48,120 nucleotides of DNA from a virus, in IMG/VR virus record IMGVR_UViG_3300028802_000024, positions 1 through 48,120 of that record; one strand, given 5' to 3'. The translations under genes and the position numbers were made by a program. This document shows, in pieces, positions 22,107 through 27,445 of this stretch. The notes beneath the pieces were generated by a model, which was not told the origin of the DNA, made no database searches, and saw only the letters and a program-made list of their open reading frames with translations. Position 1 is the first letter of the stretch; every line of letters starts with the position of its first letter.

Positions 22107-22276
22107 TGCGCTCAGAAGCCTTCGACAGCGGCGAAGATCGACAGGATCAAGAAAAATGCTCCCAGTCGCACTTCGGGGTCACTAGCTCGATACCGCAGGG
22201 TGTTGAACATGCCCACCGGTGTATCACTAATCGTTCTCCCTGTCTAGTCTCGGGGGCTGATCTATGGGTCGCGTAA
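22106..22276 (+). CDS. Short frame in an intergenic region (doubtful)
   Basis: A 56-residue frame beginning in a TGATG overlap and ending 13 bases inside the next gene. It has no recognisable domain and three scattered Cys residues. The same DNA holds a promoter-like sequence, so this may be an untranslated leader. Confidence 0.2.
   Translation: MRSEAFDSGEDRQDQEKCSQSHFGVTSSIPQGVEHAHRCITNRSPCLVSGADLWVA
22203..22231 (+). promoter_or_regulatory. Promoter-like sequence before the lysin gene
   Basis: TTGAAC (22203-22208), 17 bases, ACTAAT (22226-22231), 33 bases before ATG 22264. It is a moderate match to a sigma-70-type promoter in one of the few gaps of the late region. It could drive the lysin and lysis genes separately from the structural genes. 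Confidence 0.4.
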
Positions 22277-24132
22277 CACACATCGGCAACCATCAACGCG
22301 TTCGGCTGGGCCTACGCGAAGACGGCGGCGCCTCGGCAAGCGTGTTCGTCACGGGCACTTCCGACGGGAAAGCTCACACCGTGACGACGCACATCACGCC
22401 GGGTCATGCCCCGGTCGTTATCCAGAACGCTTCCGGCGGCCGGCATCCCAGCATCGTCCGCACGAACCCCAGCACGGGAAGCAGCCACGCCTACTACGTG
22501 CCGTCGTCAAGCGCGTCGGGTCCAGCGGTTCCCCTCATGCCGCCACGCAGGGCACCCTTCACGCCGTCGCCGAGCCTCGTGTCGCTCGTGCCCGGGCTGT
22601 CATCGGTGCTCGGCTCTCTCGGCCACGCTGCCCCCGGCGTCCCGGCGGTGCCTACCCCATTGGTCGTGCCGCCCGCCCTCGAACGGAAGACAGTCGGCTC
22701 CCCCTCGCTCGAGGAAATCCTTGCAGCGGTCAGGGAAGGACGCTTCAGGGGCGGCAGTGCGCCCGCCTTCGCGAAATTCGACCCCGCCACGGGCCAGGCC
22801 GCGGTCACGAGCGGCGGTGGAATCGGGGTAACGCAGGCGGGCAAGATCACGACCCCGGCCGTGCGCGCCGCGCTGCAGGGCCTCTCCGGTGCCAAGCAGC
22901 AGCTTCTCCGGGGCGCCACGCCGAACCTCAGCGGCCTCTCGCCAGCGGAACGCCGGATCTTCCCCTACGCCCAACGTGCCCACCGCGCCTACCCCGACAT
23001 CCCGATCAGCGTCCTGATGGCCCAGGACAAACAGGAGAGCGGCTTCAACCCGCTGGCCGAATCGAGTGCCGGCGCCTTCGGCACCTCGCAGTTCATCCCG
23101 TCGACCGCGTCCAGCTACGGCGTCCAGCGCGGCGCCACCCCGCGAGCGATCCAATCCCAGCTCAGCGGCCAGGCGCACCTCCTACACGACCAGGGTTTCG
23201 CCACGGACCCACAGTCGGCACTCTCGGCCTACTCGGGGGGGTATGCCGCCGGCGACTACAACAACCCGATCCTGGCCGACGCCCGGGCGAGTTACTCCGC
23301 GCTCGATCGCGGCGCTCACGTTCCTCCCCCTCTTAGGGCCGATTACGGCCACGCTGCGAGGCGGGCGCGGACACTGGGTATCGCGGCCCCAACCCAGCGC
23401 CAAGCTCTCGCAGGCGGTCTCCAGGGCGCTGGAAAGGTCGCTAATCCGCCCTACGTGTATCCGTTTCCAAAGGGTGCCTGGGAAGAAGAGCGCATCGACC
23501 AGGGCCAGGATTTCGGCCCGCGTCGCGAAGGGGCGCCCATCCTTGCGATCGGCCGTGGCAAGGTGCTTAGCACCGGGGCACCGGGGTGGCCGGGCGGCGA
23601 AGGTGGCGTGCTCTACAAGCTCTTGCGCGGCCCCAAGAAGGGTCACAACGTGTTCAGCTACGAGTCGCTCAGCCCGACCGTCCAGCCGGGCGACGTCGTG
23701 CACCCCGGCGAGATCATCGGTCGCGGCATCACGGGGGGAACGGGTGTCGAGTCGGGGTGGGCGGACACTGCCGGTGTCCCCCTCAGCCACGCCGAATACA
23801 GCGAGGGCATGGAAACGCGGGCCGGTAAGGCGTTCGCCGGGTTCCTCTCGAACCTCGCAGCGGGTCGGCCGGTTGGCCCCGGGGTGGTGGTTGGCGGGGG
23901 CGGCATCGGGGGTGTGGGCGCTGTTCCGGGTGTGCCTGTGGCACAGACTGCCCAGCAAGCCGCCGCGCTGCACCAGCATCCCGCCATCGCACTCTCCCAG
24001 CTCGCCTCTCCGCTCAGTGCCGGCCCCGTGTTCCCGGAAGGGTCCGCCCCCGCAGAAGCCGGCGAAGACCCCGTGGCGCAGTTGCTCGCGGCCCTTACGC
24101 AGGGTCCGTCGGTTGGCCGACGCCGCGTGTAG
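22264..24132 (+). CDS. Virion-associated lysin: lytic transglycosylase plus LytM-like domain
   Basis: The 622-residue protein has a Pro/Ser-rich N-terminal part. A soluble lytic transglycosylase domain follows at about 230-345: the catalytic Glu258 lies in AQDKQESGFNP, with GAFGTSQFIPSTASSYG and ALSAYSGGYAAG after it. It cuts glycan strands of peptidoglycan. At about 395-520 comes a LytM/M23-like fold (RIDQGQDFGPRREGAP...AIGRGKVL), where the usual zinc-ligand His positions are replaced (IDQGQD, FSYESLS). That module may therefore bind without cutting. The C-terminus is Gly/Pro-rich. It probably acts at DNA entry. Confidence 0.85.
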   Translation: MGRVTHIGNHQRVRLGLREDGGASASVFVTGTSDGKAHTVTTHITPGHAPVVIQNASGGRHPSIVRTNPSTGSSHAYYVPSSSASGPAVPLMPPRRAPFTPSPSLVSLVPGLSSVLGSLGHAAPGVPAVPTPLVVPPALERKTVGSPSLEEILAAVREGRFRGGSAPAFAKFDPATGQAAVTSGGGIGVTQAGKITTPAVRAALQGLSGAKQQLLRGATPNLSGLSPAERRIFPYAQRAHRAYPDIPISVLMAQDKQESGFNPLAESSAGAFGTSQFIPSTASSYGVQRGATPRAIQSQLSGQAHLLHDQGFATDPQSALSAYSGGYAAGDYNNPILADARASYSALDRGAHVPPPLRADYGHAARRARTLGIAAPTQRQALAGGLQGAGKVANPPYVYPFPKGAWEEERIDQGQDFGPRREGAPILAIGRGKVLSTGAPGWPGGEGGVLYKLLRGPKKGHNVFSYESLSPTVQPGDVVHPGEIIGRGITGGTGVESGWADTAGVPLSHAEYSEGMETRAGKAFAGFLSNLAAGRPVGPGVVVGGGGIGGVGAVPGVPVAQTAQQAAALHQHPAIALSQLASPLSAGPVFPEGSAPAEAGEDPVAQLLAALTQGPSVGRRRV

Positions 24133-24146
24133 CTTTCCGGCCGTGC

Positions 24147-24365
24147 ATGGCACAGCGCTCAAGCCCAAAGGAGCCGACACCGCCGGGCCGGCTTTTTGGG
24201 GGCGTCATCGTGTTGTTGACGGTGCTCACGATCATCGGCCTCGCCATCGCAGACTTCGTCTCCCAGCACCACGTCGACGAGGTGTTGGTGGCGGCTCTCG
24301 TCGTGATCGCCTTCACTTTCGGTGGCTACGGCACGGACAAGATCTTCAACCGCTTCGACCGATGA
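24147..24365 (+). CDS. Small two-helix membrane protein (holin-like)
   Basis: The 72-residue protein has two hydrophobic spans (about 18-37, GGVIVLLTVLTIIGLAIADF, and 44-61, DEVLVAALVVIAFTFGG) and charged ends. Size and topology fit a small holin or antiholin at the head of the lysis cassette. The stop overlaps the next start (ATGA). Confidence 0.65.
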   Translation: MAQRSSPKEPTPPGRLFGGVIVLLTVLTIIGLAIADFVSQHHVDEVLVAALVVIAFTFGGYGTDKIFNRFDR

Positions 24366-24460
24366 GGATCCTCTGCCGCGCGGCCCAGCTGCACGTCTTC
24401 CTGGCTGCCGGTTATGCGGCTGGGCTATCGATCGCGCTCTACCTGGTTTTCGGGGGTTAA
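24362..24460 (+). CDS. 32-residue single-span membrane peptide
   Basis: Begins in an ATGA overlap. The sequence is one hydrophobic span (LHVFLAAGYAAGLSIALYLVF) after a basic N-terminus. It could be an accessory holin or regulatory peptide. The following gene starts with GTG two bases after its stop. Confidence 0.5.
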   Translation: MRILCRAAQLHVFLAAGYAAGLSIALYLVFGG

Positions 24461-24462
24461 CC

Positions 24463-25083
24463 GTGCGTCAAGTTCAGGCTGCAATGCGCGAAGGTACGAT
24501 GGCAACTCTCCGGGCCGTGGCTGGCCTTCCCCACCGTCACCCCTTCGCGATCGCCGGTGTGTGTCTGGGGATCCTCGTCGCGATTGTCCTCGGCGCCGGC
24601 ATCAACAACGTCCAGGAACGGATCGACGTTGTCCACACCGAAACGACGAAACTGGTCCAGGCAGCCAACGTGTGCACCCAGAAGAGCCTCTCCAGCCCCC
24701 GGCTCTCTCGCGAATGCGCTGACAGGCTGCGTACGGCCCTCCTCAACTGCCGGCGGTACCCGGGCTGTCGTCAGGCGCTCCTTGCCGTCTACGGGGCTCC
24801 TGTGAGGCCTCAGAGCCAGCCCGTCGGGGCTCAGGGGGAACAAGTGAACACCGCGGCCTCTCCAAACGAAGTCCACAAAGGGGGTGGTTCTCGGTCCCCC
24901 GGTCACTCGCATCCGGGCCAGAAACCGGGGGGCGCGAAGCCCCCTCCTCCCGCCCCCTCTTCTCCACCGGAACCCGAAACACCGGAGCAGCCAGGGCACT
25001 CGGGCAAAGGCAGGTCCGGAGAAAACGGTGTGGATGCCTGTGTCGAACTGGCCGTGAGCGCTTGCGTGAAGGTCACGCCATAG
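24463..25083 (+). CDS. Membrane-anchored, Cys- and Pro-rich lysis-cassette protein
   Basis: The 206-residue protein has an N-terminal transmembrane span (FAIAGVCLGILVAIVLGAGI, about 28-47) and then a helical region with four Cys (CTQK...ECADR...NCRRYPGCRQ). A Pro/Gly-rich spacer and a terminal pair of Cys (DACVELAVSACV) follow. The outside portion may be disulphide-linked and reach into the cell wall. It might act like a spanin or wall-tethered lysis factor, but no family is recognised. GTG is the chosen start because it follows the upstream stop directly. Confidence 0.55.
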   Translation: MRQVQAAMREGTMATLRAVAGLPHRHPFAIAGVCLGILVAIVLGAGINNVQERIDVVHTETTKLVQAANVCTQKSLSSPRLSRECADRLRTALLNCRRYPGCRQALLAVYGAPVRPQSQPVGAQGEQVNTAASPNEVHKGGGSRSPGHSHPGQKPGGAKPPPPAPSSPPEPETPEQPGHSGKGRSGENGVDACVELAVSACVKVTP

Positions 25084-25096
25084 CAGGCGGGACCCC

Positions 25097-25372
25097 GTGG
25101 ACCCGGGGATAGTTGCCCTCATCGGCATCGTCATCGGCGGGGGAGGGGTGGGCGCCTTCGCTGCTTGGCGGACGGCCGGGTCGGAGGCGCACAAAAACAA
25201 GGCCGACAGCGAATCGATCCTGGTCAAAACCGCGATGGCGCTGGTCGACCCGCTGAAAGAGCGCATCGTAGAGTTGGGAAAATTGAACGAAGAGTGCGAG
25301 CGCCGGGCGGCTGCCCTGGCGGAAACGCTCGAGCAACACGAGAAGCGCATTCGTAGAATCGAGGACGCATGA
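25097..25372 (+). CDS. Single-span membrane protein with coiled coil (holin-like)
   Basis: The 91-residue protein has an N-terminal hydrophobic span (IVALIGIVIGGGGVGAFAAW) followed by a charged coiled coil (KERIVELGKLNEECERRAAALAETLEQHEKRI). This topology is common among actinophage cassette proteins next to endolysins. The stop overlaps the PAS gene ATG. Confidence 0.6.
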   Translation: MDPGIVALIGIVIGGGGVGAFAAWRTAGSEAHKNKADSESILVKTAMALVDPLKERIVELGKLNEECERRAAALAETLEQHEKRIRRIEDA

Positions 25373-25815
25373 AACCGCCGGAGCACCTAGTCGAGGAGAT
25401 CGCCGAGAGCCTGAGGGGCGACCCGCTTACGGGCGGCTTCGGCACGATGGTCAACGATATGTTCCCGATCTGCGTGATCGCCGGGGACAAGGAGGGCACC
25501 ATCCTCTATGCGAACGCCAAGTTGCTGACGTTCCTGGGGTACGAGTCAGACGAGATCGTCGGCAGGCCGCTGGACACGCTGATCCCCGCTCACTCCCGCG
25601 AGTCGCACAAGCACTACCGTCAGGGTTTCATGACGCGCCCTTCGCTGCGACCGATGGGCCGCGAACGCGAGGTCAGGATCCTCAAGAAGGACGGCGACAT
25701 CGTGCGAGTAATGATCGCCCTGGGGCCGGAGAACGAATCGGAGGGGATGCCGAAAATCGGCGGCTCCGTGACTTCGGTGATCCTGCCTCTCGACTCTGGG
25801 CTCGGGGACCACTAA
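25369..25815 (+). CDS. PAS-domain sensory protein in the lysis cassette
   Basis: The 148-residue protein is essentially one PAS domain: GTILYANAKLLTFLGYESDE (43-62), IVGRPLDTLIPAHSRESHKH, then the beta-sheet end REVRILKKDGDIVRVMIAL and a short PAC-like tail. PAS domains bind small ligands such as haem, flavin or metabolites, or pair with partners to signal redox, oxygen, light or energy state. No kinase, cyclase or DNA-binding output domain is attached. ATG overlaps the preceding membrane protein, so it is co-translated with lysis genes. A role in lysis timing is inference. It has no signal peptide and should be cytoplasmic. Confidence 0.8.
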   Translation: MKPPEHLVEEIAESLRGDPLTGGFGTMVNDMFPICVIAGDKEGTILYANAKLLTFLGYESDEIVGRPLDTLIPAHSRESHKHYRQGFMTRPSLRPMGREREVRILKKDGDIVRVMIALGPENESEGMPKIGGSVTSVILPLDSGLGDH

Positions 25816-25854
25816 GCGCGGTCCTGTCCGGCGCCATTGGCACTCTGCCGCTCC

Positions 25855-26502
25855 GTGGAGAACGGTCGATTTCCCGCTTCCGCCCTTGCGCCGATCCCCG
25901 GCGGTGAACTCTCCATAGACGCCGCGGCAGCGTGGAACGCGCCCGGCGGACCGGCGGACTCGGGTCTTCGTCCCGGCGGCCCCGAATCGTCCTACCGGAC
26001 GATCGCCATGCAGGAAACGCGCTGGCGCGTCTTCCTCGAAGGCGGCCCGCTTGCCGCCCAGGTGGGGGCGTCGTTGCACGGCATGGGGGTCTGCGTCGAC
26101 AACCCGAACGGCTGGGAACAGTCCTGGATCCACGAACACGGCGCTCGCTTCGGCTGGGTCAAGAACGAAGCGTTCAGCGAGGCGTGGCACTTCAACTACG
26201 ACGGCTCCGTACACTTCCCGGCCTTCACCCCGCTCAAGCGCGGCTCGAAGGGCAAGCGCGTCAAGCACTACACACGGCGACTGGCCTTCATCCACCGCAA
26301 GAACGGCCCGACCTACCTCAAGCGCGCGCCGGGCCGCTTCGGCCGTCGAGTGGGCCGCGCCGTCGAAGGATTCCAGCGCGACCACGGGTTGAAGGTCGAC
26401 GGCGAGATCGGACCGCGCACGGCTGGCCGGCTCGACGCGACCTTCCATCACCAGTACCGCGCGCGCCACGCCGACCATCTACCGAAGGGAGCCCGCAAGT
26501 GA
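25855..26502 (+). CDS. Endolysin: M15 D,D/L,D-carboxypeptidase plus peptidoglycan-binding domain
   Basis: The 215-residue enzyme begins ENGRFPASALAPIPGGEL, typical of actinophage M15 endolysins. The zinc motif is SLHGMGVCVD (His75, Asp82), with the second part in SEAWHFNY (Glu109, His112). It should cleave peptide bonds in peptidoglycan stems or cross-bridges. From about 135 to 195 lies a PG_binding_1 domain (VGRAVEGFQRDHGLKVDGEIGPRTA). GTG 25855 is chosen over TTG 25837 because it begins at the conserved sequence. It has no signal peptide, so export needs a holin. The stop overlaps the GH24 gene (GTGA). Confidence 0.88.
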   Translation: MENGRFPASALAPIPGGELSIDAAAAWNAPGGPADSGLRPGGPESSYRTIAMQETRWRVFLEGGPLAAQVGASLHGMGVCVDNPNGWEQSWIHEHGARFGWVKNEAFSEAWHFNYDGSVHFPAFTPLKRGSKGKRVKHYTRRLAFIHRKNGPTYLKRAPGRFGRRVGRAVEGFQRDHGLKVDGEIGPRTAGRLDATFHHQYRARHADHLPKGARK

Positions 26503-26999
26503 AGAAGCCCTGGAGCTTGATGTGGGTGGCGAAGTTCGTTGCCCGCTGGGAGGGGTTCCTGCCCCACGCCTACCTCGACACCATCGCCTCCCCGGAGGTC
26601 TGGACGATCGGCTATGGCCACACCGGGCCGGACGTTCACGCCGGGATGGTGGTGGGCAAGGCCGAGGCGCTGCGGCTCCTCGCCCACGATCTCCGCATGG
26701 CGGCGCGAGCCGTCAAGAGCGGGATCCACGTCAAGCTCGCCGTGCGGCAGCGCATGGCGCTGATCTCCCTCGCCTTCAACTGCGGCGCCGGCGCGGTGGT
26801 CGGGTCGACGCTGGCCGCGAAGCTGAATGCCGGCGATTACAGGGGTGCCGCCGAGTGCTTCCTCGAATGGGACCACGCCGGCGGTGTCGTCGTCGAGGGT
26901 CTGCTCAACCGGCGCAAGGCCGAGAAGTGGATGTTCGAGCACCCCAAGAAGCGCCCCAAGCACAATCCTCACCACCCAAAACGAAAGGCTTCCCGATGA
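26499..26999 (+). CDS. GH24 (T4-type) lysozyme endolysin
   Basis: This 166-residue muramidase has the GH24 catalytic triad in order: Glu18 (RWEGF), Asp27 (YLDT) and Thr36 (WTIGYGHT). NCGAGAVVGSTL and LNRRKAEKWMF follow in the C-terminal lobe. It cuts MurNAc-GlcNAc bonds, complementing the M15 peptidase encoded directly upstream with a GTGA overlap. The basic Lys/His-rich tail may bind the wall. Two endolysins of different specificity in tandem, with a transglycosylase upstream, is a rich lysis set. Confidence 0.88.
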   Translation: MKKPWSLMWVAKFVARWEGFLPHAYLDTIASPEVWTIGYGHTGPDVHAGMVVGKAEALRLLAHDLRMAARAVKSGIHVKLAVRQRMALISLAFNCGAGAVVGSTLAAKLNAGDYRGAAECFLEWDHAGGVVVEGLLNRRKAEKWMFEHPKKRPKHNPHHPKRKASR

Positions 27000-27445
27000 A
27001 CCCCGTTGCACACCTGATCGCCTACGCCGAGGAACGTTTCCCGGTCAACCGGCTCGTCGCCCTCGCCACCGTCTTTATCTTCGTCCCGCTCGCCGCCTCG
27101 TTCTCGGCCTACGCGGCGAAGCACTTCCCCGGCCTGCCGGTCCCGAGCAACGCGACGATCGTCTCCGGCTTCGCCCTCGGCGCCACCGCAGCGATCTCGA
27201 TCGGCTACAAGTTCCTCTCGAACTGGGGCGCCCACGAACACCGCCAGTGGAGCACTGTCGTCGGGGTCGTCGAGCGCGCCCACGAGCTCCAGAAGGAACG
27301 GCTGCGCCTCGAATCCCAGGAGCGCGTTGCCGCGATACAGGCCACCGAATCTGTCCACGCAGCCCATGAACTCGACCCCATCACCGTGGTGCCCCTAGTG
27401 CCCCTCCCGGCCGAACCCTCCGGGACACCGCCTCCCACGGTGTAG
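26996..27445 (+). CDS. Holin-like membrane protein
   Basis: The 149-residue protein has two hydrophobic spans (VNRLVALATVFIFVPLAASF and ATIVSGFALGATAAISIGY) followed by a charged helical tail (AHELQKERLRLESQERVAAIQ) and a Pro-rich end. It overlaps the lysozyme stop (ATGA) and ends the late operon, the usual place for a holin that permits endolysin access to the wall. Confidence 0.7.
   Translation: MNPVAHLIAYAEERFPVNRLVALATVFIFVPLAASFSAYAAKHFPGLPVPSNATIVSGFALGATAAISIGYKFLSNWGAHEHRQWSTVVGVVERAHELQKERLRLESQERVAAIQATESVHAAHELDPITVVPLVPLPAEPSGTPPPTV

Follow-up and report, generated by a model that had tools for sequence, protein, structure and literature searches.

A predicted haem-binding PAS protein encoded beside a small membrane protein in phage late operons, with a possible part in lysis

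Why would a phage carry, in the midst of its lysis genes, a gene for a PAS domain devoid of any output domain, and on what might such a domain act? The question is raised by a 48,120-nucleotide virus record (IMG/VR IMGVR_UViG_3300028802_000024, positions 1 to 48,120; the whole of this stretch is hereafter called the window), which encodes terminase, portal, capsid and tail genes. Its lysis cassette spans positions 24147-27445 and, together with the gene at its upstream border, is composed as follows (TM, transmembrane segment):

22264..24132, plus strand: 622-aa protein with an SLT transglycosylase and weak M23 domains, of the virion lysin type (Pfam, PHROG); upstream border of the cassette
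24147..24365, plus strand: 72-aa protein with two predicted TMs, holin candidate; no Pfam or PHROG match
24362..24460, plus strand: 32-aa single-TM ORF overlapping the preceding gene
24484..25083, plus strand: 199-aa cassette membrane protein with a TM and a Pro/Gly-rich tail
25097..25372, plus strand: p91, the partner gene, 91 aa, with an N-terminal TM and a long coiled-coil-type helix
25369..25815, plus strand: P0001, a stand-alone PAS protein of 148 aa, predicted to bind haem (Pfam, phmmer against the PDB, AF2/Foldseek)
25855..26502, plus strand: peptidoglycan-binding protein, putative endolysin (C-terminal PG_binding_1, 1.9e-8; endolysin PHROGs, 1e-8)
26502..26999, plus strand: GH24 phage lysozyme, endolysin (Pfam 2.9e-38; phrog_7 2.3e-45)
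26996..27445, plus strand: 149-aa protein with one or two TMs and an amphipathic helix, possibly a second holin or membrane lysis protein; no Pfam or PHROG match

The initial annotation placed the PAS gene before the endolysins, which is the case, the peptidoglycan-binding protein and the GH24 lysozyme both lying downstream. The N-terminal part of the former (SLHGMGVCVDN...WIHEHGARFGWV...WHFNY), read by eye, resembles an M15 D,D-peptidase, Pfam recognising PG_binding_1 only, so that two different lytic enzymes may follow the PAS gene. The gene was also said to overlap a holin-like gene upstream: the overlap is real (4 nt, 25369-25372, where ATGA holds the stop of p91 and the start of the PAS gene), but "holin-like" is a loose label for p91. 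No match to Pfam or to a curated holin family was found for p91, and its PHROG matches are weak: phrog_1397 (unknown; 8e-7), phrog_2658 ("hol-like chemotaxis"; 0.001) and phrog_2466 (Rz-like spanin; 0.005). The two-TM protein at 24147-24365 is the better holin candidate.

The PAS ORF starts with ATG, preceded by GAGG seven to ten bases upstream, and its GC content at the three codon positions (0.62/0.41/0.87) is close to that of the capsid gene (0.61/0.45/0.87), indicating that it is coding and adapted to the phage genome. Pfam assigns P0001 to PAS_9 (2.8e-10; 40.8 bits against a cut-off of 27), PAS (1.1e-7) and PAS_4 (3.6e-6), all three above their gathering cut-offs, and the same search returned no domain other than PAS. 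The AF2 model, whose input included 20 viral relatives, has a PAS fold (mean pLDDT 78, with blocks 31-120 at 81-96); membership of the PAS superfamily is thus established by curated profiles as well as by fold (Pfam, AF2 and Foldseek). A C-terminal HTH DNA-binding domain of the VqmA type is absent from the 148 residues, and the original description of a single PAS domain with no output domain stands.

The closest relatives of the window by lysis genes (L002-L004) share both lytic enzymes at 65-82% identity and are without PAS; the PAS module is therefore optional and not essential for lysis, and we rejected the idea that it is a fixed part of this cassette. In one of these PAS-less relatives, a TM protein with collagen-like repeats (L003:2342-2953) takes the position of the window's 24484-25083 protein. 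The same cassette encodes an 81-aa coil protein with a C-terminal TM (L003:2100-2342), and the membrane-coil element may accordingly pre-date the PAS. A search anchored on the 1251-aa structural protein of the window found no relatives.

Relatives of the PAS itself were found in one collection. A peptide pattern run over viral and genome contig collections found no close relatives of P0001, which also matched no PHROG family, and INPHARED, with its 50,697 records of cultured or deposited phages, gave no tblastn match to P0001, to the bacterial haem PAS protein FG214 or to any of three viral PAS. DNA patterns made from the PAS motif and scanned over 2.9 million IMG/VR contigs retrieved dozens of viral PAS genes, mostly stand-alone and 125-230 aa long, the patterns being biased to high-GC, DosP/FixL-like motifs and some of the contigs being possibly host or plasmid DNA. 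The statistics do not cover long viral PAS proteins, among them the histidine kinases L013 and L028; these two contigs, listed as viral, encode hybrid sensor kinases of 1300-1460 aa with the same PAS type and may be host or plasmid DNA. The viral stand-alone PAS genes constitute a previously unnamed set, and we found no literature report of a phage PAS-membrane module of the kind described below.

Which ligand might such a domain bind? The best phmmer matches of P0001 in the PDB are FG214 (4.4e-10), FixL (7.4e-9) and DosP (1.4e-6), and the haem domains of these same proteins make up most of the top PDB matches of the AF2 model in Foldseek. Three codons of the PAS gene specify residues that align with haem-site residues of these proteins:

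25606..25608, plus strand: His80, at the position of the proximal haem ligand in FG214 (His156), FixL and DosP
25654..25656, plus strand: Met96, at the position of Met172, the alternative ligand of haem in FG214; Met in 18 of 20 viral PAS, the first search pattern not having specified this residue
25666..25668, plus strand: Arg100, at the position of the distal Arg that stabilises O2 in FixL and DosP (Arg97 of DosP)

The register of the two haem ligands is exact, His80 and Met96 being spaced by +16 as are His156 and Met172 of FG214 (ligands taken from PMC13060918). His80 lies on the Fα helix, and Arg100 falls at the distal Arg position, as expected of the FixL/DosP type; Arg is found at the latter position in only four of the 20 viral PAS. 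In a scan that did not require the histidine, an Fα His was present in 22 of 24 short viral PAS clusters versus 12 of 22 long ones. Many bacterial PAS domains possess an Fα His without their cofactor having been characterised. In a published survey this residue was the primary haem-binding determinant of the present PAS cluster (PMC10468136). Taken together, alignment and model make haem binding by P0001 a good prediction, one we think will probably hold; among the cofactors initially proposed for comparison (haem, flavin, acyl ligands), sequence and fold indicate haem.

FG214, from Fimbriimonas ginsengisoli (PDB 10JX/10JY; PMC13060918), is the best match to P0001 in both sequence and fold, and it resembles the phage protein in the proximal His, in the Met172/Met96 pair and in a similar N-terminal helix before the core. 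It differs in being an HTH-PAS transcription factor, whereas P0001 lacks an HTH and is paired with a membrane protein, and FG214's distal His175 corresponds to Glu99 in P0001. The oxygen sensors FixL and DosP share with P0001 the Fα His, the distal Arg position and the fold, but their PAS domains are covalently joined to a kinase or phosphodiesterase output, while the phage PAS stands alone.

An alternative would be that the PAS neither binds haem nor senses, but serves as a dimerisation or docking module regulating p91 stoichiometrically, in the manner of an antiholin or assembly factor. The PAS fold is often a protein-interaction module, the His is missing from two of the 24 short viral clusters, and a diverged PAS-like domain in Cellulophaga phage phi19:1 (see below) has no Pfam PAS match, all of which would suit such a role. 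It sits poorly with the strong conservation of His80 and Met96 among otherwise diverged short viral PAS, and with the fact that the kin of P0001 by fold and sequence are haem PAS, and we judge it improbable.

Having no output domain, the PAS had been proposed to act on a holin or another membrane protein, and the surroundings of its viral relatives agree with this: the obvious partner is a membrane protein. We clustered the short-PAS loci at 60% identity, left the window out, and scored as partner any immediate neighbour on the same strand that encodes no more than 200 aa and has a single predicted TM (genes from a home-made caller, TMs from a hydropathy window). Such a partner adjoins 27 of the 32 non-redundant short viral PAS, compared with three of 104 distant control genes (genes for soluble proteins of comparable size at a distance of at least four genes; p 3e-20) and 14 of 37 genes only two to three positions away (p 9e-5). 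The latter figure reveals a neighbourhood rich in membrane genes, within which the PAS is special nonetheless. PAS and partner overlap in 19 of the 27 pairs, against 33% of other same-strand neighbours.

The partners come in two layouts, either with the TM first or with a coil first and the TM last, and their soluble part is predicted inside in 31 of 36 cases by the positive-inside rule, which gives a weak hint here because it would mis-assign Rz-type spanins. They belong to several unrelated families, suggesting that the pairing arose repeatedly. The survey of co-occurrence with holins that the initial annotation had called for finds small single-TM neighbours to be the norm, most of them without a holin match. 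The partner at L087 has weak PHROG matches to a hemolysin (phrog_1193, 0.009) and a holin (phrog_689, 0.001); nine other partners compared with PHROG matched neither holin nor hemolysin. We rejected the notion that a single known holin family supplies the partners, most of them having no family match.

In some phages the two parts are joined. L112 is a 251-aa protein in which TM, long coil and PAS follow one another; its N-terminal TM-coil part matches phrog_2658 and phrog_1397, as p91 does, and aligns weakly to p91, so that it looks like a fused form of p91 and PAS. Further TM-coil-PAS fusions are of the L051, L059 and L098 types, and several viral PAS genes possess an N-terminal TM of their own. 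The absence of PAS from the nearest lysis-gene relatives of the window might be taken to mean that a host PAS gene travels as a passenger (moron) that came to lie in the late region by chance; since PAS genes have paired more than once with membrane partners of unrelated families, overlap or are fused with them, and in the window show a codon use that matches the capsid gene, we regard this as highly improbable.

Several neighbours of viral PAS genes deserve separate mention. A PAS-adjacent family of 79-98 aa (L041:6402-6638, L043:6399-6653, L042:6390-6629, L039:6649-6903, L070:5346-5615 and L089:7783-8076) is characterised by the pattern GWxEYRRLxLxEL, a coil and a C-terminal TM; an unannotated homologue in MW202657 lies directly after terminase, without PAS. 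A second recurrent, unannotated PAS-adjacent domain (L022:3045-3551, L048:6367-6705, L076:5427-5819, L023:6717-7163 and L067:485-865) follows a single TM and contains a motif like FW...LHxPHxxxxDxLLxKy; two of its members, at L022 and L076, had no match in PHROG. One viral PAS neighbour, in the alignment A4 set, has a Pfam match to Tad4, an inhibitor of Thoeris (1.4e-28).

Is the module then tied to lysis? PHROG/phmmer searches recognised a lytic enzyme in the vicinity of the PAS at only between about a quarter and a third of the loci, families absent from the searched libraries escaping such detection. Such an enzyme immediately adjoins the PAS gene in the window and at L026, L085, L068 and L086, and lies within 3-6 genes of it in L039, L041, L078, L092 and L095; only two or three more emerged from 121 neighbours scanned in other loci. 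A link to lysis is present but is not general with present annotation, unlike the association with a membrane partner, which is nearly universal. Homologues away from lysis genes, which the initial annotation had held to count against a lysis role, thus do exist in part. It is a serious possibility that the PAS is a membrane-tethered sensor whose output is not lysis but an effect on the envelope or the signalling of the host in late infection, for example in superinfection exclusion, as a stress or energy sensor, or by docking to the coiled coils of host chemoreceptors or kinases. The far greater generality of the membrane association speaks for such an output, as do the diversity of the partners, one family of which carries a conserved soluble domain behind its TM, and the "hol-like chemotaxis" label of p91's PHROG match. 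Against it stand the lytic enzymes that the window and no fewer than nine other loci have within six genes of the PAS, in several cases as the next gene, and the location of the PAS gene on the late structural/lysis strand rather than among early takeover genes.

A cultured phage offers a further case. Cellulophaga phage phi19:1 encodes a diverged TM-coil-PAS-like protein of 240 aa, found by fold and equated with BFVD R9ZZL0 on protein length:

54202-54924 of KC821607.1 (L166): phi19:1 gp108

Its PAS-like domain gives no PAS match in Pfam, lying below the sensitivity of that search, and the protein is 95-100% conserved in Cellulophaga phages phi10:1 and Nekkels. The gene is situated between a weakly holin-like gene and a lysozyme gene, 1.5 kb before the latter. 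In the phi19:1 record, the MS/MS label for virion proteins is given to the products of tail, capsid and neighbouring late genes and not to gp105-gp108. This tells against the PAS, p91 or both being minor virion or injected components, a role that the position of the pair directly behind tail genes in many loci would suit; as no structural PHROG matches were found either, we consider it very unlikely.

We conclude that the module is optional and is probably a membrane-tethered, haem-binding PAS of phage late operons, for which the gating of lysis is the leading reading, suggested by gene position. The timing of lysis is usually ascribed to holin accumulation and a few antiholins. As the best explanation as a whole, albeit a tentative one, PAS and p91 would together be a membrane sensor in two pieces, produced late in infection and added to a standard lysis cassette. 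The PAS would bind haem through His80, and O2, NO/CO or redox state would alter its conformation or dimerisation; it would dock on the coil of p91, a single-pass membrane protein whose genetic pairing with the PAS is supported and whose like occurs fused to a PAS in other viruses. Through p91, the state of the haem might then bias the membrane step of lysis, i.e. holin triggering or endolysin access, and lysis timing would follow the cell's respiratory or oxygen state. The weak resemblance of p91 to Rz-like spanins (0.005) counts against this sensor reading.

Known systems resemble parts of the proposed sensor. The T4 rI/rIII-type antiholins, which sense superinfection and contain no PAS, would work alike, as small late proteins tying holin triggering to a condition. 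The nearest functional analogue is VqmA of vibriophage VP882, a phage-encoded PAS receptor that, on receiving its signal, brings about lysis of the host via transcription through Qtip (PMC8284805); VqmA has a DNA-binding domain, whereas P0001 has none and adjoins membrane and lytic genes. In PBSX, the small membrane protein XhlA is encoded with holin and endolysin and required alongside both (PMC5589764). Some PAS partners share with XhlA a layout of coil and C-terminal TM, one of them with the weak holin/hemolysin matches noted above; the XhlA/XhlB-XlyA cassette of PBSX has no PAS, and the TM of p91 is N-terminal, this protein not matching XhlA significantly.

That many uncultured phages encode a two-piece or fused haem-PAS membrane sensor in a late operon, with lysis gated by oxygen, NO or redox state, is a broader proposition that we hold to be doubtful. 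If true, it would amount to an input-gated lysis clock that operates without kinase or transcription factor, which we have not found described for any phage. The analysis gives a name to an unannotated viral gene pair and points to phi19:1 as a cultured phage with a diverged, fused version. A recurrent, convergently assembled module of haem PAS and membrane coil would let phages monitor, at the membrane, the oxygen or redox state of the host.
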